Below are positions 10,662-36,501 of a DNA stretch of 64,000 bases, one piece after another. The DNA comes from Bradyrhizobium barranii subsp. apii (GTDB lineage: Bacteria; Pseudomonadota; Alphaproteobacteria; Rhizobiales; Xanthobacteraceae), in NCBI RefSeq assembly GCF_011516635.5, contig NZ_CP096255.1, forward strand, positions 3,470,501-3,534,500. Reading direction: 5' to 3'. A program made the position numbers and the translations under genes. Within the stretch, counting starts at the first letter, position 1. Each line of letters opens with the position of its first letter. The notes under the pieces were generated by a model, which was not told the origin of the DNA, searched no databases, and was given only the letters and a program-made list of their open reading frames with translations.

Positions 10662-10711
10662 CTCGGCTTTAGGAGAAAAATACGATTCCCACACGGCACC
10701 CTCATGGCCAC

Positions 10712-13738: not shown

Positions 13739-13910
13739 GCGAAACCGGCGCCCAGATTTCCTTGATTTTCGTCAAGCCTGTCGGTATGGGGTTCTGAGCA
13801 TTTTCCTGATAAAAGCGGGGGCTTTTCTGGTCCATGCGTCCGGGCGCGCGTCGCTCTCGAGCTGCCGAGCCGAAACGGCAATTCCGTTCTCGAATTGAGT
13901 GAGAGACAAG

Positions 13911-17540: not shown

Positions 17541-18391
17541 AGGTCCTGGTGACAGGCGCGACGGGGTTTGTCGGGCGGCACGTTGTTAGCACGCTGCTTG
17601 GCCGAGGTCATTCTGTTGTCGCTGTCGCCCGCAACGGTGAGAAGGCCCGATCGCTGCCGTGGTTCACGCAGCTCGAATTTATCTCCTGCGACCTTCACCA
17701 GGACTTCCGGCCGGCGCTTTCGGGTGGATCTCACCCGGATGCGCTGATCCATCTGGCTTGGCCCGGTCTGCCGAACTATCGCGACTTCTTTCACCTCGGC
17801 CGCAATCTTCCTGCTGACCTGTCGTTTCTGGAAGCAGCCGTGGATGCGGGTGTCTCGCAAATCATGGTGGCGGGGACCTGCCTTGAATATGGCATGGAGT
17901 ATGGGCCGCTGACCGAACAAGGCGCTACGGCGCCGATCACGGCCTATGGTCTTGCCAAGGACGCCTTGCGGAAATCCCTGGAGTTCTTGCAGCAGCAAAA
18001 GCCGTTCACTCTGCAGTGGATGCGGCTGTTCTATATGTATGGCGAGGGGCAAAACCCAAAGAGTCTGTTGGCGCAGCTCGATCGCGCAATTGACGAAGAC
18101 GCTCCATTTTTCAACATGTCGGCGGGCGATCAGCTGCGCGACTATCTGCCAATCAACGATGTTGCCGCGAATTTCGCATTGGCTCTTGAGAATCCACTAG
18201 CCTGCAATGGGGTCATCAACTGCTGCAGCGGCGCGCCGATATCAGTATTGGATCTTGTGTCGCAACGCCGACGCTCACGATCAAGTGGGATTGAACTCCG
18301 CCGCGGTCACTTCCCTTATCCCGACTACGAGCCGATGGCCTTCTGGGGCGTGCCCTCCAAGCTCAACGCGCTGAAGCTGTCGTCGCAGTGA
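17537..18391 (+). CDS. NAD(P)-dependent sugar epimerase/reductase
   Basis: A 284-residue extended SDR: KVLVTGATGFVGRHVVSTLL (nucleotide binding), ALIHLAWPGLPNY, MVAGTCLEYGMEYGPL and ITAYGLAKDALRKSL with the Tyr-x3-Lys pair, then WMRLFYMYGEGQNPKSLLAQ. It resembles reductases that finish deoxysugar synthesis by reducing the C4 keto group, which would suit this pathway; 4-epimerisation is an alternative. It starts at GTG 17537, overlapping the previous stop as GTGA, and ends overlapping the DprE1-like gene the same way. Confidence 0.85.
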   Translation: MKVLVTGATGFVGRHVVSTLLGRGHSVVAVARNGEKARSLPWFTQLEFISCDLHQDFRPALSGGSHPDALIHLAWPGLPNYRDFFHLGRNLPADLSFLEAAVDAGVSQIMVAGTCLEYGMEYGPLTEQGATAPITAYGLAKDALRKSLEFLQQQKPFTLQWMRLFYMYGEGQNPKSLLAQLDRAIDEDAPFFNMSAGDQLRDYLPINDVAANFALALENPLACNGVINCCSGAPISVLDLVSQRRRSRSSGIELRRGHFPYPDYEPMAFWGVPSKLNALKLSSQ

Positions 18392-19758
18392 CTATCGTGG
18401 GCGGTCAGGTCTCGTCCAAGCCATCCGCCGCTCCGGGGGCGGACTCAGATTTCGTCAATTTCGACGGCCGCATCCGTGCCCGAGGGCAACTGCAGCAGCC
18501 CGATCGGTATCGCTATTGGCGAACCGACTTGACAGAAACACCGCGCATTTCGCGAGGCTCCGGGCTTTCTTACGCGGCAGCAAGCTTCCTGCAGGATGGT
18601 TTATCGGTCTCGCACCGATCGTTCGATCGCGTCACGGATTTCGATTCCGCTCGCCATGTCGTTGAGGTCGAGACGGGCATCTCGCTGTTCGCGCTGCACC
18701 GCTTCTTGTCTTCGCGCGGGCTTTATCTGCCCATCCAGCCGGGGCATGGCCGAATTTCGGTAGGAGGATGTATCGCCGCCGATGTTCATGGCAAGAACCA
18801 AAGTCGCGATGGTACGTTTATCAACCAGGTCGAGTCGATTGAGTTATTGCATCCGTCTCACGGGATATTAGAGCTGTCGCCACAGAAAAATCCGGACCTG
18901 TTTCGATTGACCTGTGGCGGTTACGGTCTGACCGGACACATCATCCGCGCACGGCTGCGCGCCTCACCAGCGCCGACGGCCTGGGTCCAGATGCGCGGCG
19001 TGCCGTTCGCCGATGCCGCAGAAGGATTCGAGCGCCTACGGCTCGCCACCGGCGGCACCGATTTCGCCTATACGTGGCACGACATGGCATCATCGAGGCC
19101 CGGGTTCGGAAGCGGCTATCTATTTCAGGGCAGGTTCGTCGACGAAGGCGCATCGACGGCGTCGGATGCGGAACCGCCAGTGCTATCCTCCGAGAGCCGC
19201 GGCCGCTGGCCGGTTTCCCTGATGAACGCGATCTCATCGCGTGCCCTCAATCTGGAGTTTCGGCGCCGACAAAAAAGAACGCTGCGGGGACAGGTCGTCT
19301 CCTTGCAGGATGCGCTGTTTCCGGCTCACAAGACGCAGTTGTACTTTCAGCTGTTCGGCGCCGCAGGTTTTCGCGAGTATCAGGCGATTCTGCCTGACGC
19401 GACGATTGAGGACTATGTCGAAACGGTCCGCGCCTATGTCCGTGCCCAGCCTCTGCCGATCACACTGTCATCCGCAAAGGCATTTGCCGGGAGGCGGGAG
19501 TTGCTGCGATTCACCGGGGCAGGCATTTGTCTCGCCTTCGATGTGCCGGCTGGTGCAGCCGCTGATCGGTTCATGGCTTTTCTCGACGAACGGGTGATGG
19601 CCCTTGGCGGCCTGCCCAACATCATTAAGGATTCGCGCTTGCCCCGCGCTGTGGTCGACTTCTGCTATGGCGAAGCGGATCGTTTCCGGGACGCGCTCCA
19701 CGCCTTCGATTCGAAACGCCTGTTTCGTTCCGATCTGTCCGAAAGGCTCGGCCTTTGA
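18388..19758 (+). CDS. DprE1-like FAD-dependent oxidase of a lipid-linked sugar
   Basis: A 456-residue FAD_binding_4 oxidoreductase resembling decaprenylphosphoryl-ribose oxidase DprE1. Visible are RGSGLSYAAASF, VVEVETGISLFALHRFLSSR, LPIQPGHGRISVGGCIAADV followed by HGKN, GTFINQVESIELL, CGGYGLTGHIIRARLR and the C-terminal FDVPAGAAADRFMAFLD. DprE1 oxidises the 2'-OH of decaprenyl-phosphoryl-ribose; DprE2 reduces the keto product, giving net epimerisation. The next gene is a DprE2-like SDR, overlapping by 4 nt, so this pair probably epimerises a polyprenyl-linked or other sugar. It begins at GTG 18388. The substrate cannot be read from sequence. Confidence 0.85.
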   Translation: MTIVGGQVSSKPSAAPGADSDFVNFDGRIRARGQLQQPDRYRYWRTDLTETPRISRGSGLSYAAASFLQDGLSVSHRSFDRVTDFDSARHVVEVETGISLFALHRFLSSRGLYLPIQPGHGRISVGGCIAADVHGKNQSRDGTFINQVESIELLHPSHGILELSPQKNPDLFRLTCGGYGLTGHIIRARLRASPAPTAWVQMRGVPFADAAEGFERLRLATGGTDFAYTWHDMASSRPGFGSGYLFQGRFVDEGASTASDAEPPVLSSESRGRWPVSLMNAISSRALNLEFRRRQKRTLRGQVVSLQDALFPAHKTQLYFQLFGAAGFREYQAILPDATIEDYVETVRAYVRAQPLPITLSSAKAFAGRRELLRFTGAGICLAFDVPAGAAADRFMAFLDERVMALGGLPNIIKDSRLPRAVVDFCYGEADRFRDALHAFDSKRLFRSDLSERLGL

Positions 19759-20489
19759 GAGCGCTGGTGATTGGAGCATCGGCGGGCGTGGGACGCGCGC
19801 TATGCGAAGCACTTGCGGCGCGTGGTACGGCGCTGCTTCTGGCGGCACGCGATGCACAGGACCTTGATGCGCTCGCCGCCCATCTTCGATTGGTCCACGG
19901 CGTCGAGGTGCGAAGGGTCGCCACCGATGCCAGTGTCCCCTCGGTCTGTGTGGAGCAGATCGCAGCGGCCGCTTCGCAGTTCGGCCAGATCGATGGGCTT
20001 TATTTTCCGATTGGGGCATCGCAGCCGGATGACCTTGGGCTGTTGAACGCGCAGGACACGCTTCGGATAGTGAATTCCAACCTCACCGTCGTGATGGCAG
20101 TCACGGCGCACTTACTGCCGCAGCTTCTGCAACAAAAGCGAGCGCGCATTGTCGGTTTCGGTTCGATCGCCGCCGTTCGCGGCAGGAGAGCCAACGTGGT
20201 ATATTCCGCTGCAAAACGGGGATTGGAGAGCTACTTTGAAAGTCTGCGCCATCTCACCGTGGGCAGCAGCGTGCTGGTTCAGTTCTTTCGACTTGGCTAC
20301 GTCGAAACCCAGCAGTCGTTTGGCAAGCGTCTGCTCTTCCCCATCGTATCGCCTGCGCGAGTTGCAGATTATGTAATGGCGAACGCTGACAACGATATCG
20401 GAGCGCGTTTTTTTCCGAGGTTTTGGGCGGGAATTGCCCTCGCGATTTCCTGGCTACCCTGGCTAATTTTCAAAAAACTGAATTTCTAA
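19755..20489 (+). CDS. DprE2-like short-chain dehydrogenase
   Basis: A 244-residue classical SDR: RALVIGASAGVGRALCEALA (cofactor binding), DGLYFPIGASQPDD, ARIVGFGSIAAVRGRRANVV and YSAAKRGLESYFESLRH with Ser, Tyr and Lys in place. A hydrophobic C-terminus (ALAISWLPWLIF) suggests membrane association, as in DprE2. It likely reduces the keto-sugar formed by the preceding oxidase. The start is TTG 19755, overlapping the previous stop as TTGA; no better ATG exists. It is the last gene of the overlapping run. Confidence 0.85.
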   Translation: MRALVIGASAGVGRALCEALAARGTALLLAARDAQDLDALAAHLRLVHGVEVRRVATDASVPSVCVEQIAAAASQFGQIDGLYFPIGASQPDDLGLLNAQDTLRIVNSNLTVVMAVTAHLLPQLLQQKRARIVGFGSIAAVRGRRANVVYSAAKRGLESYFESLRHLTVGSSVLVQFFRLGYVETQQSFGKRLLFPIVSPARVADYVMANADNDIGARFFPRFWAGIALAISWLPWLIFKKLNF

Positions 20490-20830: not shown

Positions 20831-21329
20831 AGCCACCCGCTGCACAGAACGATCGTCCCACCAAAGCAGCTTTGGTCTTCATACGGAGCTCGACGATTTT
20901 GCGCTCTGCGCGCCTTCCATGGTGTTCACCTACTTCTTCTTTCCGCATGCCGCGATCAATCGCCATGCGGTGTTCAGGGAGACACCGCCCGCTGGCAGTT
21001 GATTTCGCGTAGCAGAGACGCTCTGCGAGATCGGGCCGTGTTAAGCCCGCTCTCGAAGAACAGTACGATATCACGAGCTTGCAACTAGACCTCCGCATTG
21101 GGGGCGTGATGGTCAAAGCCGTGGCAGCGAGGCGCACCTCGATTTCGCATGCTGCCTCTGGGTCAACTCGCCAAATGTGAGCGTTTCGGCGCTGAAAGGT
21201 CCATTCGATGTGTTTCGGCGTGGGACGCCGATCGGGGGTCCCAGTCCAATGCCGATTGACATTCGATGCCAAACCGCGGCGCCCGTTCAGCGAAAACCGC
21301 CTGGCGCATCAGCCGCGAAACCTTCGGAG
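20831..21329. other. About 500 bp without a recognisable gene
   Basis: A minus-strand open frame covers much of this stretch up to 21272, continuous with the istB remnant frame. Outside the IstB part it shows no family resemblance and a composition unlike coding sequence. It is probably decayed mobile-element and intergenic DNA. I see no RNA gene. Confidence 0.4.
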
Positions 21330-22849: not shown

Positions 22850-23330
22850 TTCGCAACACCGCGAGGCGGCTTTGCGCCGGGACTTGGCGCGACTTTTAGC
22901 TCGTGAGCGGTTGAGGCCCGAGACCAGAATCCAGCGCATCCAGATCGTCCTCACCGGCGATACCGACGCGGGCGACGAGGGCATAGCGACGAACATAAGG
23001 TAGCGCCGCTCCTCCCATCCGGTGCACTTCGACGTACTTAGGCACAGACTGGCCAGTCCGAGGAGATCCATTTCCCGGAGGCGCGGGCGAGCAGGGTAGT
23101 GAGGTGGATCTGACCCTGTTCGATCCGGGTGCTCTGGATGGTGGCGATCTCCTGCTGGCTTAGCGCCTTGCGGACGATGTCCAGGCCACTCGCGAGGGAG
23201 GCGTAGCGAAAGATTCGATCCCCCTCCCGCGGGAAGGGTGACCGGGCGACAGCGGTGAGAGTCTTCTCCGGATCCATCAGCTCGGCCTGGCTCGCGCCAA
23301 CGCCGCCGCGATGGTCCCGATTTGCTCACT
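22850..23330 (-). pseudogene. Decayed ERF-type recombination protein
   Basis: Minus-strand frames reproduce the N-terminal half of the intact ERF protein at 29811-30956: [60 protein letters not shown], then in another frame [20 protein letters not shown] followed by LDAL and a stop shortly after. The linker and HNH-like C-terminus are absent. It is dead by frameshift and truncation. Confidence 0.85.
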
Positions 23331-24110
23331 GGATCGGTGCATGGGAGCCCTCCGCCACCAGGACCTCGGAGCTGATAGCGCCGAATTTGAAACGCTTGGC
23401 CTTGACGCCGCGACCGGCTACCTCCTTGGCATCCTCCGGCATGAGCTTCTTGAGGCCGGCCTTGGCAGTTTCATGTTCGCCATAGGCCGCTCGCGTTCGA
23501 AGGTAGGTTGTCGCCAGTTCTGACCATTGATTTGAGGTCGTTGTCGACGATCTTGACCGCCTTAAGCGCGAGCGGGGTGTCTCCAGATTGAACAGAGCAG
23601 GGGCCTCCCCGCAGGATGCAACGCCAGAACTTCTTTTCGGCCGTGAGCAAAAGGTGCTGGCAGAGGGGATTGGCGTGGATCTTGATCTCAACCCATTCGC
23701 CGCCGCCAGTGATGATGGACAGCACTGAAGTTCGGGCGGCTATGACCCACATGTTGTGCTGTAACTGAGCCATGTGTTTGTCGGCCGCCGCCTCTTCGGT
23801 GAAACCTGCAACATGAACTTGGCTTCAAACACCGCGCCGCCCTGTTCAACGATCCCGTCCAAGGTCGCCGCCATCCATTTGTGAACGGCGTGGCGGATGC
23901 GCTTCTGAATGTCGGTGACGGTGTGGCCGGACGATTTCTGGTACCAGGCGCGATTGAGGACCTCAGTCACCGTGCCAAGCTGAACAATGAGGTTGTTTGA
24001 GAGATATTCCGGCTCGACGTCGCCCCGCTTCTCCCGCCAAAGACGAGTGAGCGCATCCGGTCATCGCCGATGAAGATGCGGGCATCGAGCCGCCGATAAA
24101 ATGGCGTCGG
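23326..24110 (-). pseudogene. Decayed YqaJ/lambda-type exonuclease
   Basis: Fragments in alternating minus-strand frames match the intact exonuclease at 30943-31806: [111 protein letters not shown] and [20 protein letters not shown]. At least three frameshifts interrupt it. Its order relative to the ERF remnant equals that of the intact pair, so a whole module was duplicated and then decayed. Confidence 0.87.
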
Positions 24111-24209
24111 TCGTTCGGATTGAATCGAATGATACGGGTCGGCGTATTGGCGCCATCTGTTTGGACAATCGTTACCGGTATCTTCTAGGCAAGAACAAGC
24201 GGCGTTCAT

Positions 24210-24340
24210 TTGCCGCACTGCCCGAAGCCCCGCATCCGCGAGATACCGGCGCTGGATCAGCGTTGGGGGCCCGGTCGAATCAGTAACGCTCCAATCGCAC
24301 CGGAATGCCAGTCCTTTCTTCAGCAAGAATGTTGCTCGTT
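24210..24340 (-). repeat. Conserved 5' flank of the decayed recombination module (copy 1)
   Basis: The stretch shares long near-identical blocks with 31845-31985: CCGCACTGCC, AGCCCCGCA, GAATCAGTA(A/G)CGCTCC, GAATGCCAGTCCTTT and GCAAGA(A/T)T(G/C)TTGCTC. It lies directly upstream of the exonuclease gene in both copies. It is probably the promoter/leader of the module, or part of the original duplicated unit. Confidence 0.65.
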
Positions 24341-24534
24341 TTGGCGGTGGAAATGGCTCTTGTTCGCGGCCGCTTCAACGTAAGGATGGAAGGTTTTCGG
24401 GCGGCATCAAAGCTACAAAACGAAGCCAAATCGGACAAATAAGGAGCAAGACCAGGACGCAGCGCGAGCGCTTGGCAAAGCCAGATCCTGCCCGAGCGCG
24501 CGATGTATTGAAATCAAGCGGTGATTGTCGGAAG

Positions 24535-25110
24535 ATGTCGGATGCGTGGTACATGTTGAACCAGTCAGATCGTATGCGTAGTGCAGTGTTTTTTGATCGC
24601 GACGGTGTCCTCAATGAGGATGACGGCTATACTTTTGACCCGAACAAGGTCCGGTGGGTGGAAGGCGCCCGCCAGGCCGTCAAAGCAGTCAATGACGCCG
24701 GATATTTCGCGTTTGTCGTGACAAACCAATCAGGGATCGCGAGGGGGTTTTACGAGGAGCGACATGTTCGCAGTTTGCACGCATGGATGTCGCGTGAACT
24801 TGCTATTGTAGGTGCGCATATCGATGCGTTCGAATTTTGCCCACATCACCCCGAGGGCCTGATTGAGCGCTACCGCGTCCTCTGCAACTGCCGTAAGCCG
24901 CGGCCGGGGATGATTAGAGCTCTGCTTGAGCGGTATCCGGTAGATATAGGCGCTAGTTTCATGATCGGCGATAAGAAGAGCGATCTTGCCGCGGCGCAAG
25001 CGGCGGGCATCGCAGCTTATCTGTTTGATGGGGCAAACCTCCATGCATTCATTGCTCCATTGTTGAAAAATCAGTCCCCTCGTCCTCATCGCACCGACAC
25101 GGCCGGATAG
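24535..25110 (+). CDS. gmhB: Heptose 1,7-bisphosphate phosphatase
   Basis: A 191-residue HAD-family (GmhB/HisB-N) phosphatase, removing the C7 phosphate of glycero-manno-heptose 1,7-bisphosphate. It shows VFFDRDGVLNEDDGY (nucleophile and acid/base Asp), FAFVVTNQSGIARGFYEERH, the zinc loop CPHHPEG...CNCRKPRPGM and FMIGDKKSDLAAAQAAGI. The start is ATG 24535, preceded by GGAAG; ATG 24574 immediately before the core is possible. It lies alone between decayed recombination genes and the IS66 element, co-oriented with the sugar operon. It probably serves LPS core or capsule heptose synthesis. Confidence 0.9.
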   Translation: MSDAWYMLNQSDRMRSAVFFDRDGVLNEDDGYTFDPNKVRWVEGARQAVKAVNDAGYFAFVVTNQSGIARGFYEERHVRSLHAWMSRELAIVGAHIDAFEFCPHHPEGLIERYRVLCNCRKPRPGMIRALLERYPVDIGASFMIGDKKSDLAAAQAAGIAAYLFDGANLHAFIAPLLKNQSPRPHRTDTAG

Positions 25111-26026: not shown

Positions 26027-26958
26027 GTGTCCGACCGAAAAATAAGTTGAGTGATATCAGCGAGTTCTGATTCCATCGGTGTTGCGAAGCATCAAAGGGA
26101 TCGAGAATGTGGACTGATATCACCCGGGCACAGTTTGCCCGAGAGGAGCTGCGTTTGCCAAGCGACTTGACGGATGCGGAATGGGGCGTGCTGGAGAGGT
26201 TGCTTCCTGTGCGGGCCAATCGCGGGCGGCGCCCGAAATGGAGCTATCGCGACATCGTCGAGGCAGTACTCTATCTGCTGCGCGGCGGATTGCCGTGGCG
26301 CATGCTGCCGCCCACTCTGTTTCCACCAATGACCACGGTGCAGTACTATTTCTACCAATGGCGCGACAGCGGATTGTGGCAATCGATCAACCACGCACTC
26401 CTGATGCTGGCGCGCGAGGCGATCGGCCGGGAGGCCTCGCCGACGGCCGGCGTGATCGACAGCCAATCGGTCAAGACCACGGAAAGTGGCGGCCCTCGCG
26501 GCTACGACGCGGGAAAGAAGATCAAGGGTCGAAAGCGCCACATCGTCACCGACACCCAAGGGCTCCTGGTCGGAGCGATCGTTCACGCTGCCGACGTCCA
26601 GGATCGTGACGGCACGCCAGATGTCCTGTGCAGCATTCGCTACCGCTTCCCCTGGCTGCGCCATATCTTCGCCGATGGCGGCTATGCCGGCGAAAAGCTC
26701 AAGGCGGTGCTGGAAAAGATCGGCCGGTGGACTGTCGAGATCATCAAGCGCTCCGATGCCGCACAGGGCTTCGAGGTGCTTCCGCGCCGCTGGGTGGTCG
26801 AACGAACCTTCGCCTGGCTCGGCCGCAACCGCAGATTGGCCAAGGACTTCGAGCGAACCATCGAAAGCGCAACTGCCTGGCTCTTCCTCGCCTCTGTCCA
26901 ACTCATGACAAGGCGCATCGCAGCGATAAAAACAGCAATGCAATTTTGAGTCAGGCTC
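26027..26958 (+). mobile_element. IS5-family element (932 bp) in tnpC
   Basis: The ends GTGTCCGACCGAAAA and, reversed, GAGCCTGACTCAAAA are imperfect inverted repeats. The flanking 3-bp direct repeat TGA (26024-26026 and 26959-26961) fits the IS1031-type subgroup of IS5. Excision restores the tnpC frame through ELPQRAGDAD. One intact transposase gene fills the element. Confidence 0.88.
26107..26949 (+). CDS. IS5-family (IS1031-like) transposase
   Basis: A 280-residue transposase: N-terminal LTDAEWGVLERLLPV and SYRDIVEAVLYLLRGGLPWR, then the DDE core in GVIDSQSVKTTESGGPRGYD, HIFADGGYAGEKLKAVL and RRWVVERTFAWLGRNRRLAK. That is the standard one-ORF layout of this subgroup. The frame is complete, so the element may be active. 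It reads opposite to the IS66 genes it interrupts. Confidence 0.95.
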   Translation: MWTDITRAQFAREELRLPSDLTDAEWGVLERLLPVRANRGRRPKWSYRDIVEAVLYLLRGGLPWRMLPPTLFPPMTTVQYYFYQWRDSGLWQSINHALLMLAREAIGREASPTAGVIDSQSVKTTESGGPRGYDAGKKIKGRKRHIVTDTQGLLVGAIVHAADVQDRDGTPDVLCSIRYRFPWLRHIFADGGYAGEKLKAVLEKIGRWTVEIIKRSDAAQGFEVLPRRWVVERTFAWLGRNRRLAKDFERTIESATAWLFLASVQLMTRRIAAIKTAMQF

Positions 26959-28463
26959 TGAGGCAATTCGGTGAGGACGTGGCGCAACCACGCTAACGGC
27001 TCGACACGTGAGGCGCGGCAGGTCAGCATCAGGCTATAGACGACGGCACTGGCCTTGGCTCCGTCCACGGTATCGCTGAACAACCAACTCTTCCTGCCAG
27101 TTGCAAAAACCCTGATGTCGCGCTCCAGAAGATTGTTGTCAATCGGCATGCTGCCGTCCCCGGTGTAGCGCGTCAGATATTCCCATTGGTTTCGGGTGTA
27201 GGATACGGCGTCGCCGAGCTTGCTGTCAGGCAAGACCTTCGGGGCCATGTCATCGAGCCATACTTTGAGAGCATTGAGGATGGGGACACTATGTTGCTGG
27301 CGGAAGCGGCGAATGCAGTAGGCCTGTGTTTCACCCTTCTTCGGTATTCCGTCCCACGCCCGCCTTTCAACCCGGTAGAGCTGTTCAAAGAACCGCAGCG
27401 CTTGCTCGGGCGGACCGCCGCCCTTCTTCCTGGCTTTGAGGGCATCGACAAAGCGCCGCCGGGAGTGGGCCATGCATCCAATGTGGGTGGCCCCTTCCAG
27501 CGTGCGCCATGCGGTATAGCCGTCACTCATTACAATGCCACGGTAATCGCCGAGGAAGGCTTGCGGGTGGATTTGGCCGCGGCCCGGCTGATAATCCAGA
27601 AGAACGATCGGCTCGTGGCTGCCCTTGCCGCTGCGATAAGCCCACATGTACGATGTGCTGGTGGCCCGTTTGTCCTTCTCCTTGAGGACCTGAACCGTTG
27701 TCTCGTCGTCATGGATGAGAGGTTGTGATCTGAGCCGCAGCTTCAGGGCGTCGTAGATGCGATGCAGATGCTTCTCGCTCGAGCCAATCACCCAGTGGCC
27801 CAAAGCGCCGCGGCTGACAGGAACACCTGCACGTTCGAAGGCCTGCGCCAGGCGGTAGAGCGGCGTGCCATCGACATATTTGTGAACCAGCGCGAACGCC
27901 AGCGTCGAGGGCGTGGCAACGCTGCCCGGCAATGGTTGCGGCGGCATCGGCGCGGTCACGACAGGGGCGTGGATCCCGGTGCGATCGCTATGGCGGCACG
28001 CATATTTGAAGCGCACATTCTGTAAAACCTTCGCCTTCACCTCGATATGAAGTTGCTCGGTGACAGCCTCGCCCATGCGATGCATCTGGCCACGGCAGCA
28101 AGGACACGCCTTCTGATCGTCGGACAGGTCATACTCGACGCGCTCACGAGGTAGGTTCCCCGGCAGCGGCTTGCGGCCGCGCTTCTTTCCCATTGTGTTT
28201 TCGACGGGTGGCAAGCCCGTGTCCGGAAGTTCGGCGATATTGTTCGTTTCACTGCCGGCGTCCTCCTCATCGGAGGCCTGCTCGGCTTCATTGAAGAGAC
28301 GATCAACATGCTTTTCGCTGCGCGGCGCAAAACGATGCAGGCGTGCCAGCGCCAGTTCTTCCTCGAGCTTGGCGACGCGGTCGGCGAGTTGATGGTTCTC
28401 CGCCTGCAGCGCAGCAATGCGTGCCAACAGCACTTCAACACTCGGATCGCCGGTTCGATTCAT
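26959..28463 (-). pseudogene. tnpC: IS66 transposase TnpC, main part, 3' interrupted
   Basis: About 500 codons of an IS66 transposase: coiled N-terminus (LLARIAALQAENHQLADRVA), zinc region ACPCCRGQMH, DDE core IHDDETTVQVL, IVMSDGYTAWRTLEG and PIDNNLLERDIRVFATGRKS with the Glu. After ...VLTELPQ the frame enters the IS5 element and continues as about 90 foreign residues. All catalytic motifs precede the insertion, so a truncated and possibly inactive protein could still be made. It differs clearly from the TnpC at 2109. Confidence 0.9.
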
Positions 28464-28515
28464 CGAATTCTTGAATCTGAACCGTACCGACGCGTCAACC
28501 GCTCAACTCGAGAGC

Positions 28516-28869
28516 TCAGCCGGCAACCTGATATTGCCGCACCGGATGGCGGACCATCGCATCGATATCGATGCCGTCAAGGATCCAGTGCAATTGCTCC
28601 GTCGTCAGCGTGACGATCGCCTCCTGGCGGCGCGGCCATCGGAACCTGTCTTCGGTCAGCCGCTTCAGGACCAGTACAAAGCCGGACCGATCGAAGAACA
28701 GAAGCTTCATCCGGTCGCAACGGCGATTGCAGAACGCAAAAACCGCCGGAGTGAATGGATCGAGCGCCATCGTCTCCTGGACCAGGACCGCAAGGCTGTT
28801 GATGCCAGCCCGGAAGTCGATCGGCTCACGGTGCAGATAGACCTGCAGGTCATCGCCCAGTCTAAACAT
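28516..28869 (-). CDS. tnpB: IS66 accessory protein TnpB
   Basis: A 117-residue IS66 TnpB: DDLQVYLHREPIDFRAGINS, AVFAFCNRRCDRMKLLFFDR and LVLKRLTEDRFRWP. It overlaps tnpA by 8 nt and precedes tnpC by 52 nt, the same spacing plan as the copy at 1704. It is intact. Confidence 0.94.
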   Translation of the reverse strand: MFRLGDDLQVYLHREPIDFRAGINSLAVLVQETMALDPFTPAVFAFCNRRCDRMKLLFFDRSGFVLVLKRLTEDRFRWPRRQEAIVTLTTEQLHWILDGIDIDAMVRHPVRQYQVAG

Positions 28870-29320
28870 CGCCCAGCGCTCCGATGATCGCCGTCAATGC
28901 ATCCACATCGCCGCATTCCAGCGCGAGCTTCACGCCATTCGGCAGCGACACGCTCACTTTGGCCGGAGAACAAAAAGCTGGAGTCCCTTTGGGTTCCGAA
29001 CCACGCACTTCATCGTAAGCCGGCAAATCAACCGTCGCCACGCTGTCTTTTCGCGACAGGTCCCGCTCGGACTTCCCCTCAAGCTGAACCGGGATGAACG
29101 CCGGGCGTGAGGACGGCGGCAGCGACCTGGTCGCGCTGTGCTTCTTGATCCACTTCCGAAGGAGGTTCGCGTTGACCCCATGTTCGAGTGCAAGCCTCGA
29201 TACCGAAACCCCAGGCTCAAGGCAGGCCGCGACAAGACGCTCTTTCGATGCCGCCTCGTAGCGCCGGCGACCGTTCCGGCCGACAAGCCTGACCCGCAGT
29301 TTCTGATCATCGTCGCTCAT
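28862..29320 (-). CDS. tnpA: IS66 accessory protein TnpA (HTH)
   Basis: A 152-residue helix-turn-helix protein: RYEAASKERLVAACLEPGVS and SRLALEHGVNANLLRKWIKK. The C-terminal LPNGVKLALECGDVDALTAI is typical of IS66 TnpA. ATG 29320 is chosen because the frame upstream runs through a palindrome (29326-29349) close to the element end. Confidence 0.88.
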   Translation of the reverse strand: MSDDDQKLRVRLVGRNGRRRYEAASKERLVAACLEPGVSVSRLALEHGVNANLLRKWIKKHSATRSLPPSSRPAFIPVQLEGKSERDLSRKDSVATVDLPAYDEVRGSEPKGTPAFCSPAKVSVSLPNGVKLALECGDVDALTAIIGALGDV

Positions 29321-29325
29321 CACAA

Positions 29326-29349
29326 GGTGTCCACCTATTTTGGTGGACA
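29326..29349. repeat. Palindrome upstream of IS66 tnpA
   Basis: GGTGTCCACC and GGTGGACACC face each other around a 4-base centre. It lies between the right inverted repeat of the IS66 element and tnpA. It could be an operator for tnpA expression or a transcription stop shielding the element. Confidence 0.65.
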
Positions 29350-29475
29350 CCTCATGCATCAGGACTCTCAAAAGCAAAAGGTGCGGAGAAATTCGCGCTT
29401 ACGATCGATGAGGAGCCTGGTTATGGGCAAAATGAGAGCATCCAAGCCGCAAAGAGCAGACTGGAACGTGATTGG

Positions 29476-29814
29476 TTAGTTGATACGCTTGAACTCGTAC
29501 CGTTCGATCACTTTCGCTTTGTCCGGTTCCAGGGGGTGTGCTTGCTGAGAGGTGCCAAATAGCAATCCAGATGCCTTCTGTTTTGCGACGCTGGCCAACA
29601 TCAGGGCAACGAGCACAAGGCCAACAGCTCCGACAGTGACAATGAGCTCAGCGAGAAAAGGTGCGGCGCCCGTGCCGAAAATCGGCTCGCGTGGCCCTTT
29701 GCCATTGGACCGGTGATCCTCTTGCAGTTGAGTGATTTCAGGCCGTCTGTTTGGCTTGATGAATAGCGGTTGATCGGACCGTGCCGTTTCTTTTGGTTTT
29801 GAAGGGTCGATCAT
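29476..29814 (-). CDS. Small single-span membrane protein of the recombination operon
   Basis: A 112-residue protein with a polar N-terminal half and one hydrophobic helix ([20 protein letters not shown]), followed by a basic/charged tail. I recognise no family. Its ATG overlaps the ERF stop as ATGA, so it is the last gene of that operon and is probably co-translated. A membrane protein at the end of a phage-type operon could be a holin-like or anchoring protein; the sequence does not decide. Confidence 0.65.
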
Positions 29815-30956
29815 TGCTGCTGCGCTTCCGTCTGCAAAGTTTGGTGCGGTTTGCGATCCAATGCCGCGACTTCGGGGCTAGCGGTGGTAGCCGTGCTTGC
29901 CGCCCAGAGCTCCCTTGCGACAGGCAAGGGCGATATCTGCACGTTTGCCCACCACGCCTTTTCGTTGCCGTACCGGTGCAAGGCTTCGTGATGCAAGCGG
30001 CAGAGAGGCACGGTAAACTCGTCGCTGACCTTGCGGCTCAGTGTTCTAGGTTGAGCGAACTTCAGGTGATGCGCATCCGCCGGGGATTGTTTGCATACGA
30101 GGCAGGGATGTTCGCGGACGAAGGCGAGATGTAATTTGTTCCTCTTGCGGGGCGGTTCCTTGGGGATAGCGAGGCCGGTTTGAAAGGCCGTCGAGGTGCG
30201 CTCGGCCTCGTAGACCTCGGTGATATCCACTGGGTTTTGAGGGGCGCCAGCTATTGGTTGCATGGGATCTGGTGGCGACTCCAATCTCGCCTGATAAGCA
30301 GCCTCGATTGATCGAGCATCAATCTCTTGGAGGGTGTTTTTGAGGGGTAGGCTGGCTTTGGCCCAAGCCAGGAGATCTTCGGTGCCTGCGAGCTCAGTCA
30401 GCAACCGCTGACGCAGTGCCGCTGAATCTGGCCCTCCAAGAACCGGCGGTCTGTTCAAAAGAGGTTTGGGCGTCCTTTTTTTCACTTCTGAGGCAGGGCG
30501 TTGCTCAGGAGCGGGCGGTACTCCAGCGATGGCATCGGGTGCATCGAGGTCGTCTTCACCTGCGATACCGACGAGCGCGAACAGTGCGTATCGGCGTGTA
30601 TAGGTTAGCGCCGCACCCATCCGATGCGGCGCCTCGACGTCCTTGCCGGAGCAGACCGGAAGATCGGAGGAAATCCATTCCCCCGAAGCATGGGCGAGCA
30701 GGGTCGTAAGATGAATCTGGCCGCTCATTTGCTCGGTTCGGGTGGTCTGGATAGTTGCGATCTCCTGCTGGCTCAGAGTCTTGCGGACGATGTCCAGGCC
30801 AGAGGCGAGCGAGGCATAGCGGAAGGTCCGGTCCCCCTCCCGCGGGAAGGGTGACCGGATGACCGCGGTCAGGGTCTTCTCGGGGTTCATCAATTCGGCC
30901 TGGGCTCGGGCGAGCGCGGCTGCGATGGCTCCGATATGCTCACTAGACCGATGCAT
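29811..30956 (-). CDS. ERF-type single-strand annealing protein with HNH-like C-terminus
   Basis: A 381-residue protein. The first ~140 residues are ERF-like: [60 protein letters not shown] and [21 protein letters not shown] Pro-rich linker leads to a C-terminal zinc/HNH-like module: [20 protein letters not shown] and [23 protein letters not shown] proteins anneal single strands in phage recombination, usually beside a 5'-3' exonuclease, which is the upstream gene here. ATG 30956 overlaps that gene by 14 nt; the frame extends to 31046 but that would enter the exonuclease. The fusion to an HNH-like part is notable. Confidence 0.85.
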
Positions 30957-31806
30957 GCGACCCCTCCTCAGACTGGGCCTCGAAGCTGACGGCCCCCGAT
31001 TTGGAGCGCTTGGCCTTGATGCCGTGGCCTTTTGCCTCTTTGGCATCCTCCGGCATCAGCTTCTTCAGATCCGATTTGGCTGTCTCGTGCTCGCCATGCG
31101 CCGTCCGGGTGCGAAGATAGGTCGCGGCAAGTTCCGCCCACTGATTGGACGTGGACATGTCCATGACCTTGACCGCCTCCAGCCGTGGACGCGGCGTCTC
31201 GATGTTGAAGAGGATCGGCGGCTCGCCGCGTTGCACGCAGCGCCAGAACTTCTTTTCGGCGGTGAGCAGGAGGTGCTGATAAAGCGGATCGGCGTAGATC
31301 TTGATCTCGACCCACTTGCCGCCACCGGTGATGATGGAGAGAACGGAGCTGCGCGCGGCGGTAACCCACATGTTGTGCTGGAGCTGTGCCATGTGCTTGT
31401 CGGCTGCAGCCTCCTCTGTGAAGGCCCATGGAAGCATGAACTTGGCTTCGAATACCGCGCCGGTCTGCTCGACCATCCCGTCGAGCGTCGCCGCCATCCA
31501 TTTGTGAATGGGGTGACGTACGCGTTTTTGGATGTCCTTGATGGTTTGGCCTGAGATGCGCTGGTACCAGGCGCGATTCAGTAGTTCGGTTACAGTGCCG
31601 AGCTGAACGATTAAATTGTCGGAGAGGTCTTCGGGTTCCGCCTCGCCGCGTTTCTCATACCAAAGCTGGGTAAGAGCGCCCTGATCGTCGCCCATGATGA
31701 TGCGGGCGTCCGAACCGCCGATGAAGTGCCGCCGGTCGTGCGGATTAAATTTGAATGTTGGGTTATGCGGCTCTGTCGCGCGGGACGCATCAGTTTGAAG
31801 GGTACT
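30943..31806 (-). CDS. YqaJ/lambda-type viral recombinase exonuclease
   Basis: A PD-(D/E)xK exonuclease of about 287 residues: [58 protein letters not shown] and AKFMLPWAF (catalytic Asp, then Glu-x-Lys), and [20 protein letters not shown]. Phage members degrade one DNA strand 5'-3' and work with an annealing protein, encoded next. TTG 31806 preceded by CAGGAGA is the likeliest start; ATG 31851 is possible but its leader is Arg-rich and less family-like. A decayed copy is at 23326-24110. Confidence 0.85.
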
Positions 31807-31844
31807 CAACGGGATCTCCTGCTTAAAGCTTGCGCGGCTTCTCC

Positions 31845-31985
31845 GCCGCACTGCCTTAAGCCCCGCAGTCGCGAGGTGAGATGCCGAGGCCGCTTGCGCC
31901 CGGCAGAATCAGTAGCGCTCCGATCGGCTTTGAATGCCAGTCCTTTTCGGAGCAAGATTCTTGCTCTTTTGCGCGACTTCTGACC
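31845..31985 (-). repeat. Conserved 5' flank of the intact recombination module (copy 2)
   Basis: Homologous to 24210-24340 (shared blocks such as GAATGCCAGTCCTTT and AGCCCCGCA). It lies just upstream of the exonuclease gene and downstream of the DUF5681-like gene. Conservation outside coding sequence suggests a promoter/leader, or simply the extent of the duplicated unit. Confidence 0.65.
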
Positions 31986-31994
31986 GGAAGGTGC

Positions 31995-32546
31995 TCAAGG
32001 ATGCTCGCTCCACCATTTGGGCCATCGCACCTTCTTTGGCGTGCGCGTAGCGTCCACTACGATGCGCTGTTCGGCCGGCGAGAGCCGCCGCGGCAGGCGC
32101 TCTAAAGTGGCTTCGACAAGCCACGGTTCGATCGCCATGCGAGCGGTCTCGCGATACGGATCGAGCTTTCTCGCCATACGCAATGGTTCAAGTGCGAGGG
32201 TGACGCTACCTGGGTCTACACCTACGTGGACGATTGTCATTGGCTCGCTTTGGCTCTTTTCACCTCGTGCCTGCTCGATCAGTGCCAGCGAAGCCCGTGC
32301 CGCTGCGCCATCACCATCGAGGCCGCGCTTTGCCAGATGAAGGAGATATGCTTCAGTCGCCGTGACAAGGCGTTCAGTGCCGCGTTCACGGATCGTAACC
32401 ATTTGACCGAGCACCGCCTCATAAGGTGCAAGCCGGTGACGACCGCGGGGGCGGCCGGCGGGATTGCCGCTCTGGCCTTTCACGAAGCGCGAACCCTTGG
32501 GCGGCCGTCCATAACCGACTTCGTTGGCGTTATTAATCCAACCCAT
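31995..32546 (-). CDS. DUF5681-like protein 1
   Basis: A 183-residue protein with the DUF5681 signature near its start, GYGRPPKGSRFVKGQSGNPA followed by GRPRGR, a basic Gly/Pro/Asn segment. A helical part follows (LAPYEAVLGQMVTIRERGTE, ATEAYLLHLAKRGLDGDGAA). ATG 32546 has a good GGAGA upstream. It overlaps the previous gene by 14 nt. DUF5681 proteins are common in alphaproteobacterial prophages and islands and sometimes sit near terminase or DNA methylase genes; the function is unknown. A DNA-packaging role is only a guess. Confidence 0.8.
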   Translation of the reverse strand: MGWINNANEVGYGRPPKGSRFVKGQSGNPAGRPRGRHRLAPYEAVLGQMVTIRERGTERLVTATEAYLLHLAKRGLDGDGAAARASLALIEQARGEKSQSEPMTIVHVGVDPGSVTLALEPLRMARKLDPYRETARMAIEPWLVEATLERLPRRLSPAEQRIVVDATRTPKKVRWPKWWSEHP

Positions 32547-33177
32547 CGGCGTCTCCTGTGAGTCGCTTGGAGCTGTCGCCCCCAAAAATTAGCATGTGAG
32601 AATCGCGCGTGCATCGCCGGACCTCGTTGCATTCGCTTTCGGTAAGACTTGCGCCACGACGAGTTCGGTCGAGCCCAAGTTGAGCCGCTGAAGGCTCAAG
32701 AAGAAGCTGGGCACGCTCCAAACCCAAATCCGACCTAGTCGGGTTCGGTGCTGCGATCCCGAGGATCACGAGTGCCGCATCGGCATTGTCCGGATCGGGG
32801 GAGAAATGCTGCGTGATTTTTGCGTGCGACGGCTGCGTGGGAGCATGTTTTTTCAGCCACGCTTCGCGCGTGATGATCCACTTCTCGACCTGCCGCATGG
32901 CCATGCGTTTGCCCGCGAACGCGTCCCTTAGGGTTCGGTGCCACAGTGCTTCTTCCATCGAGATCTCGCGCGCTCTTCCCCCGTGAGTGGTGATCACGGT
33001 CTTGTCGAGCAGCACTTCCAAGGCGGAGCCCTCTTTCGCGCGCTTGCTGGAACCGCGTGGTCGTCCCTTAGGGTTGCCGCTGCGGCCCTTGTGAAACCTG
33101 CCCGCATTCGGCGAATCCGGGGCTGTTCGATCGGGATCAACAGCAGGCTGAGGAGCGGTCTCGGGCTTGGCGTTCAT
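32533..33177 (-). CDS. DUF5681-like protein 2
   Basis: A 214-residue protein with a second DUF5681-type N-terminal motif, FHKGRSGNPKGRPRGSSKRA. It continues with VLLDKTVITTHGGRAREISM and EEALWHRTLRDAFAGKRMAM, helices also seen in the family. It shares only the motif and general helical layout with the neighbour, so the two are diverged paralogues. ATG 33177 overlaps the methyltransferase stop as ATGA. The function is unknown. Confidence 0.8.
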   Translation of the reverse strand: MNAKPETAPQPAVDPDRTAPDSPNAGRFHKGRSGNPKGRPRGSSKRAKEGSALEVLLDKTVITTHGGRAREISMEEALWHRTLRDAFAGKRMAMRQVEKWIITREAWLKKHAPTQPSHAKITQHFSPDPDNADAALVILGIAAPNPTRSDLGLERAQLLLEPSAAQLGLDRTRRGASLTESECNEVRRCTRDSHMLIFGGDSSKRLTGDADGLD

Positions 33178-34466
33178 GACCCTGCTCCTTCCAGGCGTGG
33201 CTCAAGGCCGGTTTGCGCCGACCAGCGCTCAAGCGCCACATCGACATATTTCGGATCGATCTCGATCCCGCGAAAACGTCGGCCAGCGCGCTCGGCCGCG
33301 AGCAATGTTGTGCCCGAGCCGAGAAAGAGATCGAGCACCAGATCGCCATGTTTGGTGACATCCTTGATGGCGTCCGCAACGAGCCCAACCGGCTTCACGG
33401 TTGGATGCAGGGCAAGGTCTTCTCGTCGGCCGCCCCGCATGGAATTGGCAGATGCATAGTCCCAGACATTGGTGCGATTGCGACCGTGCTTGCCAAGCTC
33501 GACCATATTGAGATGAGAGGCCGAGCCCACCCGGTAGACGAAGACCAGCTCGTGCTTGGACCGGTACAGCGATCCCATTCCGGCATTGGACTTGTTCCAG
33601 ATGCAGAGATTGAGGAGATCGCCATAGATGGTTGAGCCCACCGCCGTAACGTCGTCCATGTGCCGCCAGTCCATGCAGATAAAATGGACCGCACCATCGC
33701 GGGAAAAGCTTGCCGCGGCGCCAAGCGTGTCTTTGAGGAACGCGCGGAATTGGTCTTCGCTCATCTCGCCTGAGGCCATGGCGAATTCACCGTGACGGCC
33801 CGTTGGGTTCGCATTGCCTTCGATCCGGACGTTGTAAGGTGGATCTAGGAACGCCGCATCGATCCGGGCGTCCTTGCCGACAACACGCTCAAGGAAAGCG
33901 GCATCGCGGCTATCCCCGCATCCGATTCGATGCTCTCCGAGAATCCAGATGTCGCCAGGTCTTGCTTTCGGAGTTCTGGGCGCGGCCGGAATGACCTCAT
34001 CATCGGGATCGGCCGCCGATCTCGAGACGATGACGTCAATTTCGCCGGTCGAAAAGCCGGTGAGGGTTGCGTCGATGTCGAGATCAATCGAGGCGAGTTC
34101 GCCCAGCTCTGCTTGCAGGATTTCGATGTCCCAGCCGGCATTGAGCGCGATCTTGTTGTCGGCCAATCGCAGCGTGCGTTTCTGGGTCTCCGAGAGGCCG
34201 GAGAGGGTGATGGTCGGCACCTGGGCAAGGCCCAAAGCTTTTGCCGCTTGAAGCCGGCCATGACCGGCGATGATGTTGCTATCGGGATCGACCAGTATCG
34301 GATTGGTAAATCCGAACTCCTTAATGGAGGCCTTGAGCTGTTCAATCTGCCGCTTCGGATGTGTCCTCGCATTGCGCGGATCAGGAACGAGATTGTTAGC
34401 TGGGCGATAGACGATGGAGAGCTGCGAAGATGCCGCGGGTAAGACTGATGTGTTCATGAAACTCAC
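33174..34466 (-). CDS. ParB-domain DNA adenine methyltransferase
   Basis: A 430-residue two-domain protein. Residues ~10-110 are ParB/Srx-like: NNLVPDPRNARTHPKRQIEQ, FGFTNPILVDPDSNIIAGHG and RLQAAKALGLAQVPTI. The rest is a beta-class N6-adenine or N4-cytosine methyltransferase: AAFLDPPYNVRIEGN (motif IV), HPTVKPVGLVADAI, and VLDLFLGSGTTLLAAERAGR then FRGIEIDPKYV (SAM binding). No restriction gene is adjacent, so it is an orphan of the kind found in phages and islands. ATG 34466 or 34457 may be used. It heads a six-gene minus-strand operon. Confidence 0.92.
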   Translation of the reverse strand: MSFMNTSVLPAASSQLSIVYRPANNLVPDPRNARTHPKRQIEQLKASIKEFGFTNPILVDPDSNIIAGHGRLQAAKALGLAQVPTITLSGLSETQKRTLRLADNKIALNAGWDIEILQAELGELASIDLDIDATLTGFSTGEIDVIVSRSAADPDDEVIPAAPRTPKARPGDIWILGEHRIGCGDSRDAAFLERVVGKDARIDAAFLDPPYNVRIEGNANPTGRHGEFAMASGEMSEDQFRAFLKDTLGAAASFSRDGAVHFICMDWRHMDDVTAVGSTIYGDLLNLCIWNKSNAGMGSLYRSKHELVFVYRVGSASHLNMVELGKHGRNRTNVWDYASANSMRGGRREDLALHPTVKPVGLVADAIKDVTKHGDLVLDLFLGSGTTLLAAERAGRRFRGIEIDPKYVDVALERWSAQTGLEPRLEGAGS

Positions 34467-34715: not shown

Positions 34716-35277
34716 CCTCTTGCGCGTCCCAGAGGTCCCCAACGCCCGCCGTGGCACCACTGTGCATTCGTCTTATGGTCCTGCGACAGTGAGTTTGAAC
34801 ATTCCGGCCCTGCCAAGAGTCTGCCTATGACAGTATCGTAGCTTTGAACGCGGTGTTGCAGCGGCGCCACCAGTTTGATCGCGTCCAGAGGCGCGGACGC
34901 CATTCAATGGCGGCAACATATTCCGTCCGCCGAGTTCGGGCTTGCTCTAACCGGATCGGCCGTGCTCCGTCAGGACAGGAAAGCTGTTGCGCAATCGCGA
35001 GATATTCGAGACGAGCATTCGATTTTCATCTCGTCCGCGCAAATGCCTCAAGGTTGGGAGAGAAGGCGGGCGCGAGATTTTATCCAGATCGCCTCCTGTT
35101 CGCGGCCTGTTATTGGCATTAACAGGAAAGTGCCGGCAGCGATGCCGAAGCCGCGGAAAACATTACCCAAAGCAGGCTAGCCAATATTCGTGGACTCGGT
35201 GAGAACCTGTTCTTAGACCGTCTTTTTTGAGAAATTCCCTGTTATTTCGCTGTGGCGGACATTGGATGATCGGTTGC
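34716..35277. other. Island edge without recognisable gene
   Basis: Short plus-strand open frames (34844-35180) show no motif or convincing start. Composition shifts here from the mixed island to the high-GC chromosome at about 35280. No tRNA or attachment-site repeat could be recognised by eye. Confidence 0.4.
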
Positions 35278-36501
35278 TCACCGCTCGTCCGCGATCACCT
35301 TGCCGTCGTTCGGCAGTGCGCCCGGGCTGACCAGTTCGACATTGCCGCCGAGCTTCGTCACCGTGCGCAAGCTGGCCGCGATGTCCTCCCGTAGCGCATT
35401 GCTTGCGGCCGCCGTTTCCGCTCTCAGCGTCATCGCGTCGGTCTCGCCCTGGCGCGTGACGAGGAGGCGCAGCCGCCCGAGCGCGGGATGGCGCTTGCCG
35501 ATTTCGGCGATCTGCTCGGGACGGACGAACATGCCCTTGATCTTGGTGGTCTGGTCGGCGCGGCCCATCCAGCCCTTGATGCGCATGTTGGTACGGCCGC
35601 ATTTGCTCGGGCCCGGCATCACCGCGGTGAGGTCGCCGAGCGCGAGACGGATCCAGGGATGGTGCGGATCGAGCGAGGTCACCACGATCTCGCCGACGTC
35701 GCCCGGCGCGACGGGATCGCCGGTGCCGGGTTTGACGATCTCCATGATGAGATCCTCGTTCACGACCATGCCCTCGCGCGCGTCGGTCTCGAAGGCGATG
35801 AGGCCGAGGTCGGCGGTGCCGAAGGCCTGGTATGCGTCGATGCCGCGCGCCTTGATCTCGGCTTGGAGCGAGGGAGGGAAGGCCGCACCCGAGACCAGCG
35901 CGCGCTTGATCGATGAGACGTCGCGCCCCGAGCCTGCTGCGGCATCGAGCAGAATCTTCAGAAAGTCCGGCGTGCCGCTGTAGCCGACCGGACGGTAGGC
36001 CTCGATCAGCTCGAATTGCTGCTCGGTATTGCCGGGACCGGCCGGGATCACCGCGCAGCCGAGCGCACGCGCCGAGGCATCGAAGATGAAGCCGCCGGGG
36101 GTGAGGTGGTAGCTGAAGGTGTTGAGCACGATGTCATCGGGGCGGAACCCGGCCGCGAACAGCGCCCGCGCACCGCGCCAGGGATCGGCCTGCCGCCCTT
36201 CAGGCTCGAAGATCGGACCGGGAGAGGTGAAGAGGCGAGCGAACGATCCCGGGGATGCCGGCACGAAGCCGCCGAAGGGCGCTGAGGCCTTGTGCAGGGC
36301 CGGCAGCTCCGACTTGCGCAGCACCGGCAGGCCCGCCAGCGCCGCCCTGGAGGTCACGGCGGCCGGATCTATGCCCTTCAGCCGCTCGGCGTAGGCGGGT
36401 GCGGCCATTGCGCCGCGCAGCACGTCCGGCAGGCGGGAGAACAGCTCCGCCTCGCGCACGGCTGGTTCGCGCGTCTCGCGGGCGTCGTAATGGGCGGTCA
36501 T
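35278..36501 (-). CDS. Phenylacetate-CoA ligase-like AMP-forming ligase
   Basis: A 407-residue PaaK-type adenylating enzyme: SRAALAGLPVLRKSELPALH, RLFTSPGPIFEPEGR (phosphate loop region), VLNTFSYHLTPGGFIFDASA, PVGYSGTPDFLKILLD, DAYQAFGTADLGLIAFETDA, HPWIRLALGDLTAV and GWMGRADQTTKIKGMFVRPE with the C-terminal hinge. It is somewhat shorter than PaaK (about 430). The substrate is an aryl or short acyl acid activated to its CoA thioester; specificity is not evident. It is divergent from the AGE gene and near liv operon 1, suggesting uptake and activation of aromatic or branched acids. Confidence 0.88.
   Translation of the reverse strand: MTAHYDARETREPAVREAELFSRLPDVLRGAMAAPAYAERLKGIDPAAVTSRAALAGLPVLRKSELPALHKASAPFGGFVPASPGSFARLFTSPGPIFEPEGRQADPWRGARALFAAGFRPDDIVLNTFSYHLTPGGFIFDASARALGCAVIPAGPGNTEQQFELIEAYRPVGYSGTPDFLKILLDAAAGSGRDVSSIKRALVSGAAFPPSLQAEIKARGIDAYQAFGTADLGLIAFETDAREGMVVNEDLIMEIVKPGTGDPVAPGDVGEIVVTSLDPHHPWIRLALGDLTAVMPGPSKCGRTNMRIKGWMGRADQTTKIKGMFVRPEQIAEIGKRHPALGRLRLLVTRQGETDAMTLRAETAAASNALREDIAASLRTVTKLGGNVELVSPGALPNDGKVIADER

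Follow-up and report, generated by a model that had tools for sequence, protein, structure and literature searches.

A window of 64,000 nucleotides (nt) from Bradyrhizobium barranii subsp. apii (contig NZ_CP096255.1, positions 3,470,501 to 3,534,500; the genome, G000 below, comprises 10.58 Mb in 3 contigs) carries a minus-strand operon that combines a DNA methyltransferase with recombination genes of phage type. According to the list of open reading frames (ORFs) and their Pfam matches, six intact ORFs run from position 34466 down to 29476 in the order MT-D1-D2-EXO-ERF-MEM. We compared these genes with their relatives in other genomes and in phage records; L-numbers denote loci and G-numbers genomes, with L186, L188 and L189 being the same loci as L003, L019 and L020, respectively, and L138 the same as L011.

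Gene content and layout of the operon

The first gene, MT (33174-34466), starts with GTG and encodes a protein of 430 amino acids (aa) with a ParB_N domain (PF02195, 1.9e-7) and an N6_N4 DNA methyltransferase domain (PF01555, 6.7e-30), which also matches PHROG 498 (1.2e-118). Two DUF5681 proteins follow, D1 (32533-33177; 214 aa; PF18932, 2.8e-17) and D2 (31995-32546; 183 aa from the ATG at 32546; PF18932, 6.3e-18), and these are the genome's only two DUF5681 matches; the D2 ORF itself is open from a TTG at 32585 (31995-32585). Beyond a leader at 31852-31994, recognised by blastn of EXO upstream regions, lies EXO (30943-31851), a YqaJ/RecE-like exonuclease of 302 aa with a GTG start at 31851 (PF09588, 8.8e-14; PHROG 434, 1.5e-39), and then ERF (29811-30956), an annealing protein fused to an HNH domain (DUF968), with 381 aa from the ATG at 30956 (PF04404, 6.2e-15; PF06147, 2.9e-12). 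The ERF ORF is open from an ATG at 31046 (29811-31046), and the start MH[RQ]SSE is common to the three homologues compared. The last gene, MEM (29476-29814), encodes a putative single-pass membrane protein of 112 aa.

A first-pass annotation of this DNA had already described six minus-strand genes at 29476-34466, and Pfam names support five of them. Its name for the last, a membrane protein, reflects one hydrophobic stretch seen by eye; MEM has no Pfam or PHROG match, and homologues 42-56% identical also lie 3' of ERF in L186 and L187. The same annotation took all junctions to overlap or nearly so, which holds for four of the five: these overlap by 4 nt (ATGA at 33174-33177 and 29811-29814, from the ORF coordinates) or by 14 nt (D1/D2 and EXO/ERF, given the starts ATG 32546 and ATG 30956). 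At the fifth junction, 143 nt separate the end of D2 at 31995 from the GTG of EXO at 31851. Promoter- and terminator-like patterns in the operon were not above their frequency in shuffled sequences. As had been proposed, the six genes include phage recombination functions, and Pfam and PHROG searches of them detected no structural, integrase or lysis genes.

MT has the methyltransferase catalytic motifs looked for in a type II restriction-modification system (DPPY and FLGSG), and DPPY precedes FLGSG, an order that we take to place it in the beta class of methyltransferases. PADLOC also matches MT to type II methyltransferases (best 4e-84), and no cognate restriction endonuclease was found among the six genes with Pfam or among the five searched with PADLOC. 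The motif-order pattern was unmatched in 7 of the 24 MT relatives with 380 aa or more, and some terminase-linked relatives (L026 and L027-type loci: L024, L032, L033, L036 and L040) have no DPPY or FxGxG recognisable by this pattern; some members of the family may therefore have a decayed or divergent catalytic site. In the distant relatives L029, L033, L141, L142 and L146, MT is adjoined by a small helix-turn-helix (HTH) gene and, on the opposite strand, by an Mrr-like endonuclease gene, an arrangement that resembles a controlled restriction-modification system. At least 80% of MT is covered in 297 of 1497 matching phage records; the best near-full-length annotated matches are only ~40% identical, and an unannotated 5.4-kb record reaches 46%.

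D1 and D2 align with the first and the second DUF5681 gene, respectively, of other operons, and both have C-terminal extensions that are kept in the operon lineage and missing from short terminase-linked DUF5681 proteins. The first-pass annotation had remarked on the double occurrence of this family; there are indeed two copies, but pairs recur beyond the operon lineage (L086, L142, L146, L149 and L151), so the doubling is not peculiar to the window. The structural model of D1 is of low confidence (mean predicted local distance difference test score, pLDDT, 59), and that of D2 is confident for residues 41-90 only (pLDDT 91-96), which form a helix, a hairpin and two helices; the D2 N-terminus, modelled less confidently, holds a conserved GxSGNPxGRP motif. 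Foldseek and VIA-align found no PDB match to D2 at E<=0.001 (best VIA Z 3.3). The two best Foldseek matches in the viral library (E 0.02 and 0.03) include a DUF5681 protein of Leptospira phage LE4, and in the phage collection D2 has one match, in an unannotated 5.4-kb record. The available text of the open-licence papers has DUF5681 in a table of a Salmonella phage virion proteome.

Two separable modules and their relatives

The operon consists of two separable modules, MT-D1-D2 and EXO-ERF. We examined the best 80 of 117 confirmed stretches matching EXO, representing 78 distinct loci, with up to 10 kb of upstream DNA and less for some at contig ends. ERF lies within 300 bp downstream in 74 of the 78 loci, and MT upstream, within 10 kb, in 24 (21 on the same strand, 3 on the opposite one), of which 10 have a terminase large subunit (TerL) gene and 4 a serine recombinase. 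A small divergent gene, HTH by eye and without a Pfam match above cut-off, is found upstream in 39 loci; one locus has a recombinase only, and 14 have no MT, divergent gene or recombinase, some of these being at contig ends. When the 420 bp upstream of EXO were compared by blastn, 36 of the 79 other regions matched that of the window, and in all except three loci of the same lineage the similarity starts at ~31980 or lower, at least 15 bp past the D2 stop. Because this similarity begins just after the D2 stop, EXO has its own leader and D2 ends a separate module. L190 has MT-D1-D2 with neither EXO nor ERF in the 20 kb examined. A single stand-alone modification/repair system, one of the options in the first-pass annotation, is not what these loci show, as each module occurs without the other.

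EXO carries LDG...FEAKF residues of the PD-(D/E)xK type, a motif shared by 77 of the 80 relatives with 240 aa or more, and the HNH motif occurs in each of the 71 ERF relatives that reach 340 aa. A YqaJ/RecE-type exonuclease with PD-(D/E)xK residues and an adjacent ERF are the features of a Red/RecET-like pair. EXO and ERF-HNH are most likely partners in recombination by resection and annealing, and MT most likely serves to mark DNA. None of 285 matching phage records covers 80% of ERF-HNH. EXO was detected in 12 of the 60 relatives searched, all 12 of them Bradyrhizobium. Its closest relative in the phage collection, at 44.5% identity, is annotated as hypothetical in Bradyrhizobium phage BDU-MI-1 (L085, 22624-23571), near primase/helicase, single-strand binding protein and polymerase III epsilon genes.

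Although an exonuclease/annealing pair outside phages is known from integrative and conjugative elements of the SXT/R391 family, in which the available text of PMC3118119 describes Exo (S066) and Bet (S065), the window differs in several respects. In both cases a nuclease of the lambda-Exo/YqaJ superfamily stands beside a single-strand annealing protein in a carrier that is not a phage, but the annealing protein of the window is of ERF type with HNH rather than Bet, it is linked to MT and DUF5681, and no conjugation gene is found among the six genes. Similarly, phage ParB-methyltransferase fusions (PHROG 498) have the same domain order as MT, whereas MT of the window stands ahead of two DUF5681 genes and a recombination pair.

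Elsewhere, MT and DUF5681 genes are followed by a Terminase_6C gene (in L033, PF17289 at 4.2e-14), and the L033 terminase is similar over nearly its full length to phage TerL, at ~34% identity. EXO, MT or DUF5681 matches were found in 24 genomes, and 20 of these (all but G016, G018, G034 and G050) were searched for PF17289 and for one portal family, PF04860. The 18 PF17289 matches comprised 13 in cassettes (12 beside MT and DUF5681, 1 beside EXO only), 3 beside a portal and 2 without assignment, and 13 PF04860 portals were detected in 8 of the 20 genomes. The first-pass annotation had raised the question of whether such genes are ever found beside terminase or capsid genes. Relatives are often beside terminase, but the 13 terminase cassettes all lack a PF04860 portal nearby, in a test limited by the short contigs on which several of them lie; in G017 the nearest such portal is ~239 kb from the terminase cassette. 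Counter to a clean separation, G017 also has two MT relatives, distant ones at 37-40% identity, that lie ~11 and ~33 kb from portals, and methyltransferases like MT thus occur in likely prophages too. In G000, genome-wide searches for the same two families gave 0 matches each. Capsids were looked for only by scanning neighbouring ORFs against PHROG: 35 proteins selected from the flanks of terminase cassettes at 8 loci matched 17 PHROG families, 8 named and 9 unnamed, and none of the named ones (integrases, repressor, O-acetyltransferase, O-antigen acetylase, groEL, hydrolase) is structural. A further PHROG scan took in 107 of 150 flanking ORFs and the best 25 of 79 matching families.

The cassette of L157 continues into an HTH-family gene, DUF3489, DUF2924 and a serine recombinase, and the order is similar, by sequence label, in L147 and L154; a recombinase is also present in L012 and, by similarity label, in L138. 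Taken as a family, these loci indicate that the MT-DUF5681 module most likely belongs to small capsid-less integrative elements. A record filed as 'Bacteriophage sp.' (MT839917.1; 5365 bp, unannotated, human faeces; H10, H105, H106) matches MT, DUF5681 and TerL in that order and may represent part of the same capsid-less cassette, deposited as a phage. No literature linking a ParB methyltransferase, a terminase large subunit and Bradyrhizobium was found among open-licence papers. The individual enzymes are of known kinds, but these papers appear to contain no description of the conserved combination, of an ERF-HNH fusion outside phages or of the orphan-terminase relatives.

Among 265 Bradyrhizobium genomes, MT was detected at E<=1e-180 in 6, the window's included, and the other five copies are 79-86% identical. 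Five of the six carry MT-D1-D2-EXO-ERF without internal stops (the window, L186, L187, L188 and L189), and the sixth has MT-D1-D2 alone; a search for the gene order in other genomes, as the first-pass annotation had suggested, therefore finds it in four besides the window. Nor is the operon found only as a piece of complete prophages, the outcome that annotation had named as contradicting it. EXO of L187 is intact by tblastn, and flanks differ among the genomes carrying the operon. Ratios of nonsynonymous to synonymous divergence (dN/dS) against the copies in L003, L019 and L020 were 0.09-0.12 for MT, 0.22-0.27 for D1, 0.16-0.24 for D2, 0.06-0.16 for EXO and 0.09-0.19 for ERF, with 0.31 for MEM (L003 only), all of them rough, with dS ranging from 0.7 to 2.7, mostly above 0.7 and in several cases above 1.5. 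With the gene order intact in five genomes and low dN/dS at the three loci compared, the operon is unlikely to be a prophage in simple decay.

A site at the edge of a polysaccharide cluster

On the MT side of the operon lies an AMP-binding-enzyme gene, AMPB (35278-36501, minus strand; PF00501, 2e-12). Homology with five genomes stops at 35276-35282, which is the AMPB stop codon; one of the five, G069 of the same species, is 97% identical up to that codon, and neither MT nor operon DNA was found in it, save for a 69% match of ~320 bp within MT elsewhere. AMPB borders a variable region, and 19 of 20 regions from relatives have sugar-epimerase, HAD or UDP-sugar-dehydrogenase labels (from our own clusters). 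The AMP-binding gene family lies near 14 of the 78 EXO loci in the flanking DNA examined, and the site has therefore been used repeatedly.

On the other side, an IS66-like transposon (26107-29402; ORFs 28862-29377, 28516-28869 and 26682-28463), interrupted by an IS5-like transposase ORF (26107-26949), ends ~74 bp 3' of the operon; we take the ORFs to be IS66-like and IS5-like, and part of the IS66-like region has a 92% match in G069. Beyond it lies the remnant of a second element on the minus strand (22934-25066), with an EXO' gene (23335-24057) in three broken pieces and part of an ERF' gene, 76.5% identical over 2177 bp to L138. L138 has a fuller element, with a serine recombinase, at the same chromosomal site, and a HAD phosphatase gene (24472-25110, plus strand) stands beside the remnant. 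Since the window keeps a decayed piece of such an element, the site has been occupied more than once. Farther on, in a stretch of lower guanine-plus-cytosine content, lies a deoxysugar/polysaccharide cluster (9564-20489) with RgpF, glycosyltransferase, nucleotidyltransferase, GDP-mannose-dehydratase-like, dTDP-sugar epimerase and C-methyltransferase genes. A 40-bp sequence at 21223-21262 is a dispersed repeat, with at least 12 copies at 95-98% identity in G069.

One epimerase query matched within 10 kb of 12 of the 78 EXO loci (5 within 5 kb), while the corresponding shares of six closed genomes are 2.4% and 1.3%; in this comparison loci share sites, flanks are often short and one genome length is rounded. 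This enrichment of EXO loci near one epimerase type serves as support only. A looser single-linkage epimerase cluster included 28 loci and was set aside because it mixes distant epimerases.

Origin and possible working of the operon

On balance we consider it probable that the operon is a capsid-less, phage-derived modification/recombination island in two modules, probably a domesticated relative of terminase-bearing mobile elements. Among the options of the first-pass annotation, a domesticated recombination island fits best; a satellite does not describe the window copy, which is without terminase or recombinase, even if relatives with both exist. The enzyme activities, the DUF5681 role, the benefit to the host and the past mobility described below are predicted from sequence. 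MT-D1-D2 would most likely come from a family of small integrative elements whose distant members precede an orphan TerL, some with a serine recombinase, and EXO-ERF-HNH would be a recombination pair of the lambda-Red kind, which has a leader of its own and is also found by itself at many sites in Bradyrhizobium. EXO would resect double-stranded ends, ERF would pair the resulting single strand with a homologous one by annealing and its HNH domain would nick or trim intermediates, while MT, with DUF5681 as its DNA-bound partner, would mark the DNA concerned. Gene position before TerL in relatives, which is the basis here, suggests that DUF5681 proteins have a DNA-binding, small-terminase-like role, and in the terminase-bearing relatives they would act as adaptors in the manner of a small terminase. 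The window lineage has neither terminase nor recombinase; its genes would be kept by selection, most likely as a domesticated function in recombination and modification, at an edge of the polysaccharide locus that is prone to exchange.

Several observations weigh against this reading. D1 and D2 are only ~25-35% identical to the terminase-linked DUF5681 proteins, which lack their C-terminal extensions, and no solved structure supports a small-terminase fold for DUF5681. The genome-wide portal search covered one family, PF04860, with several cassettes on short contigs. Synonymous divergence is uneven along the operon (L003: MT 0.8, D1 2.0, D2 1.2, EXO 0.7, ERF 1.2); the operon is therefore a mosaic, and its genes may not always have functioned together. 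It is absent from G069, a genome of the same species, and hence dispensable, and decayed EXO/ERF copies are common (window 22934-25066; L186, L187), which implies high turnover.

An unlikely alternative is that the operon is a prophage remnant, in which recombination and modification genes of a temperate phage are now drifting after loss of the structural genes. MT, EXO and ERF do have phage relatives, a decayed second copy and insertion sequences adjoin the operon, and the distant MT relatives of G017 lie ~11 and ~33 kb from portals, in likely prophages. Drift is nevertheless hard to reconcile with six intact ORFs, an order kept in five genomes and low dN/dS in the three compared; no phage record covers 80% of ERF-HNH, D2 has a single phage-collection match (5.4 kb, unannotated), and none of the 13 terminase cassettes has a PF04860 portal nearby, this being the one portal family searched genome-wide. 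We therefore did not retain a simple decayed prophage as the leading explanation, in view of the five genomes with intact ordered genes, the low dN/dS and the lack of PF04860 near terminase cassettes.

Quite improbable, in our estimate, is a restriction-modification or anti-phage unit in which MT protects the host, DUF5681 gives specificity and EXO and HNH destroy unmodified invading DNA. The type II methyltransferase matches in PADLOC (best 4e-84) favour it, as do several distant relatives in which MT adjoins a small HTH gene and a nuclease gene, either Mrr-like or with a weak PD-(D/E)XK resemblance, but Pfam finds no restriction-nuclease family among the six genes, 54 of the 78 EXO loci are without MT in the upstream DNA examined (some flanks being short), and PADLOC has no match for D1, D2, EXO or ERF, nor for the terminase and nuclease relatives examined. 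A restriction-modification system was rejected on the ground that PADLOC matches the methyltransferase only. A still-mobile phage satellite, whose operon makes concatemers of its own island for packaging by a helper phage, is the most doubtful of these accounts. Capsid-less relatives with terminase, some with recombinases, and flanks that differ between genomes agree with it, and satellites of the kind called phage-inducible chromosomal minimalist islands (PICMI) are packaged as concatemers without identifiable packaging genes, according to the available text of PMC10803314. Like the operon, these satellites are small, lie in the chromosome and consist of phage-like genes with no structural ones among them; in the available text of PMC10803314 and PMC11389934 they encode an integrase, AlpA and a primase but no packaging gene that can be identified. 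The relatives of the window, in contrast, encode TerL with DUF5681, MT and exo/ERF, and the window copy has no integrase. There is also neither recombinase nor terminase among the six genes, IS66 lies ~74 bp beyond the operon's 3' end, and no PF04860 portal in the window genome marks a resident helper of that type.

Returning to a domesticated island related to terminase-bearing elements, a broader and rather speculative scenario can be drawn from it. A hitherto undescribed class of capsid-less elements in Hyphomicrobiales, made up of a ParB-methyltransferase, a DUF5681 small terminase, an orphan TerL, a serine recombinase, an exonuclease and ERF-HNH, would use single-strand annealing to make concatemers, which the elements' own terminase would load into helper-phage heads, and the terminase-free branch in Bradyrhizobium, once domesticated, would promote the exchange of phage-receptor cassettes beside surface-polysaccharide loci.

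Rhizobial polysaccharide loci are phage receptors and symbiosis determinants. The operon gives DUF5681 a context, as a partner of ParB-type methyltransferases that in relatives precedes TerL with no capsid genes seen nearby, and it places a Bradyrhizobium exonuclease/ERF-HNH pair outside recognisable phages. Should EXO-ERF be active, it might be one cause of exchange at the polysaccharide loci of rhizobia, and it could provide a native recombineering tool for slow-growing Bradyrhizobium.

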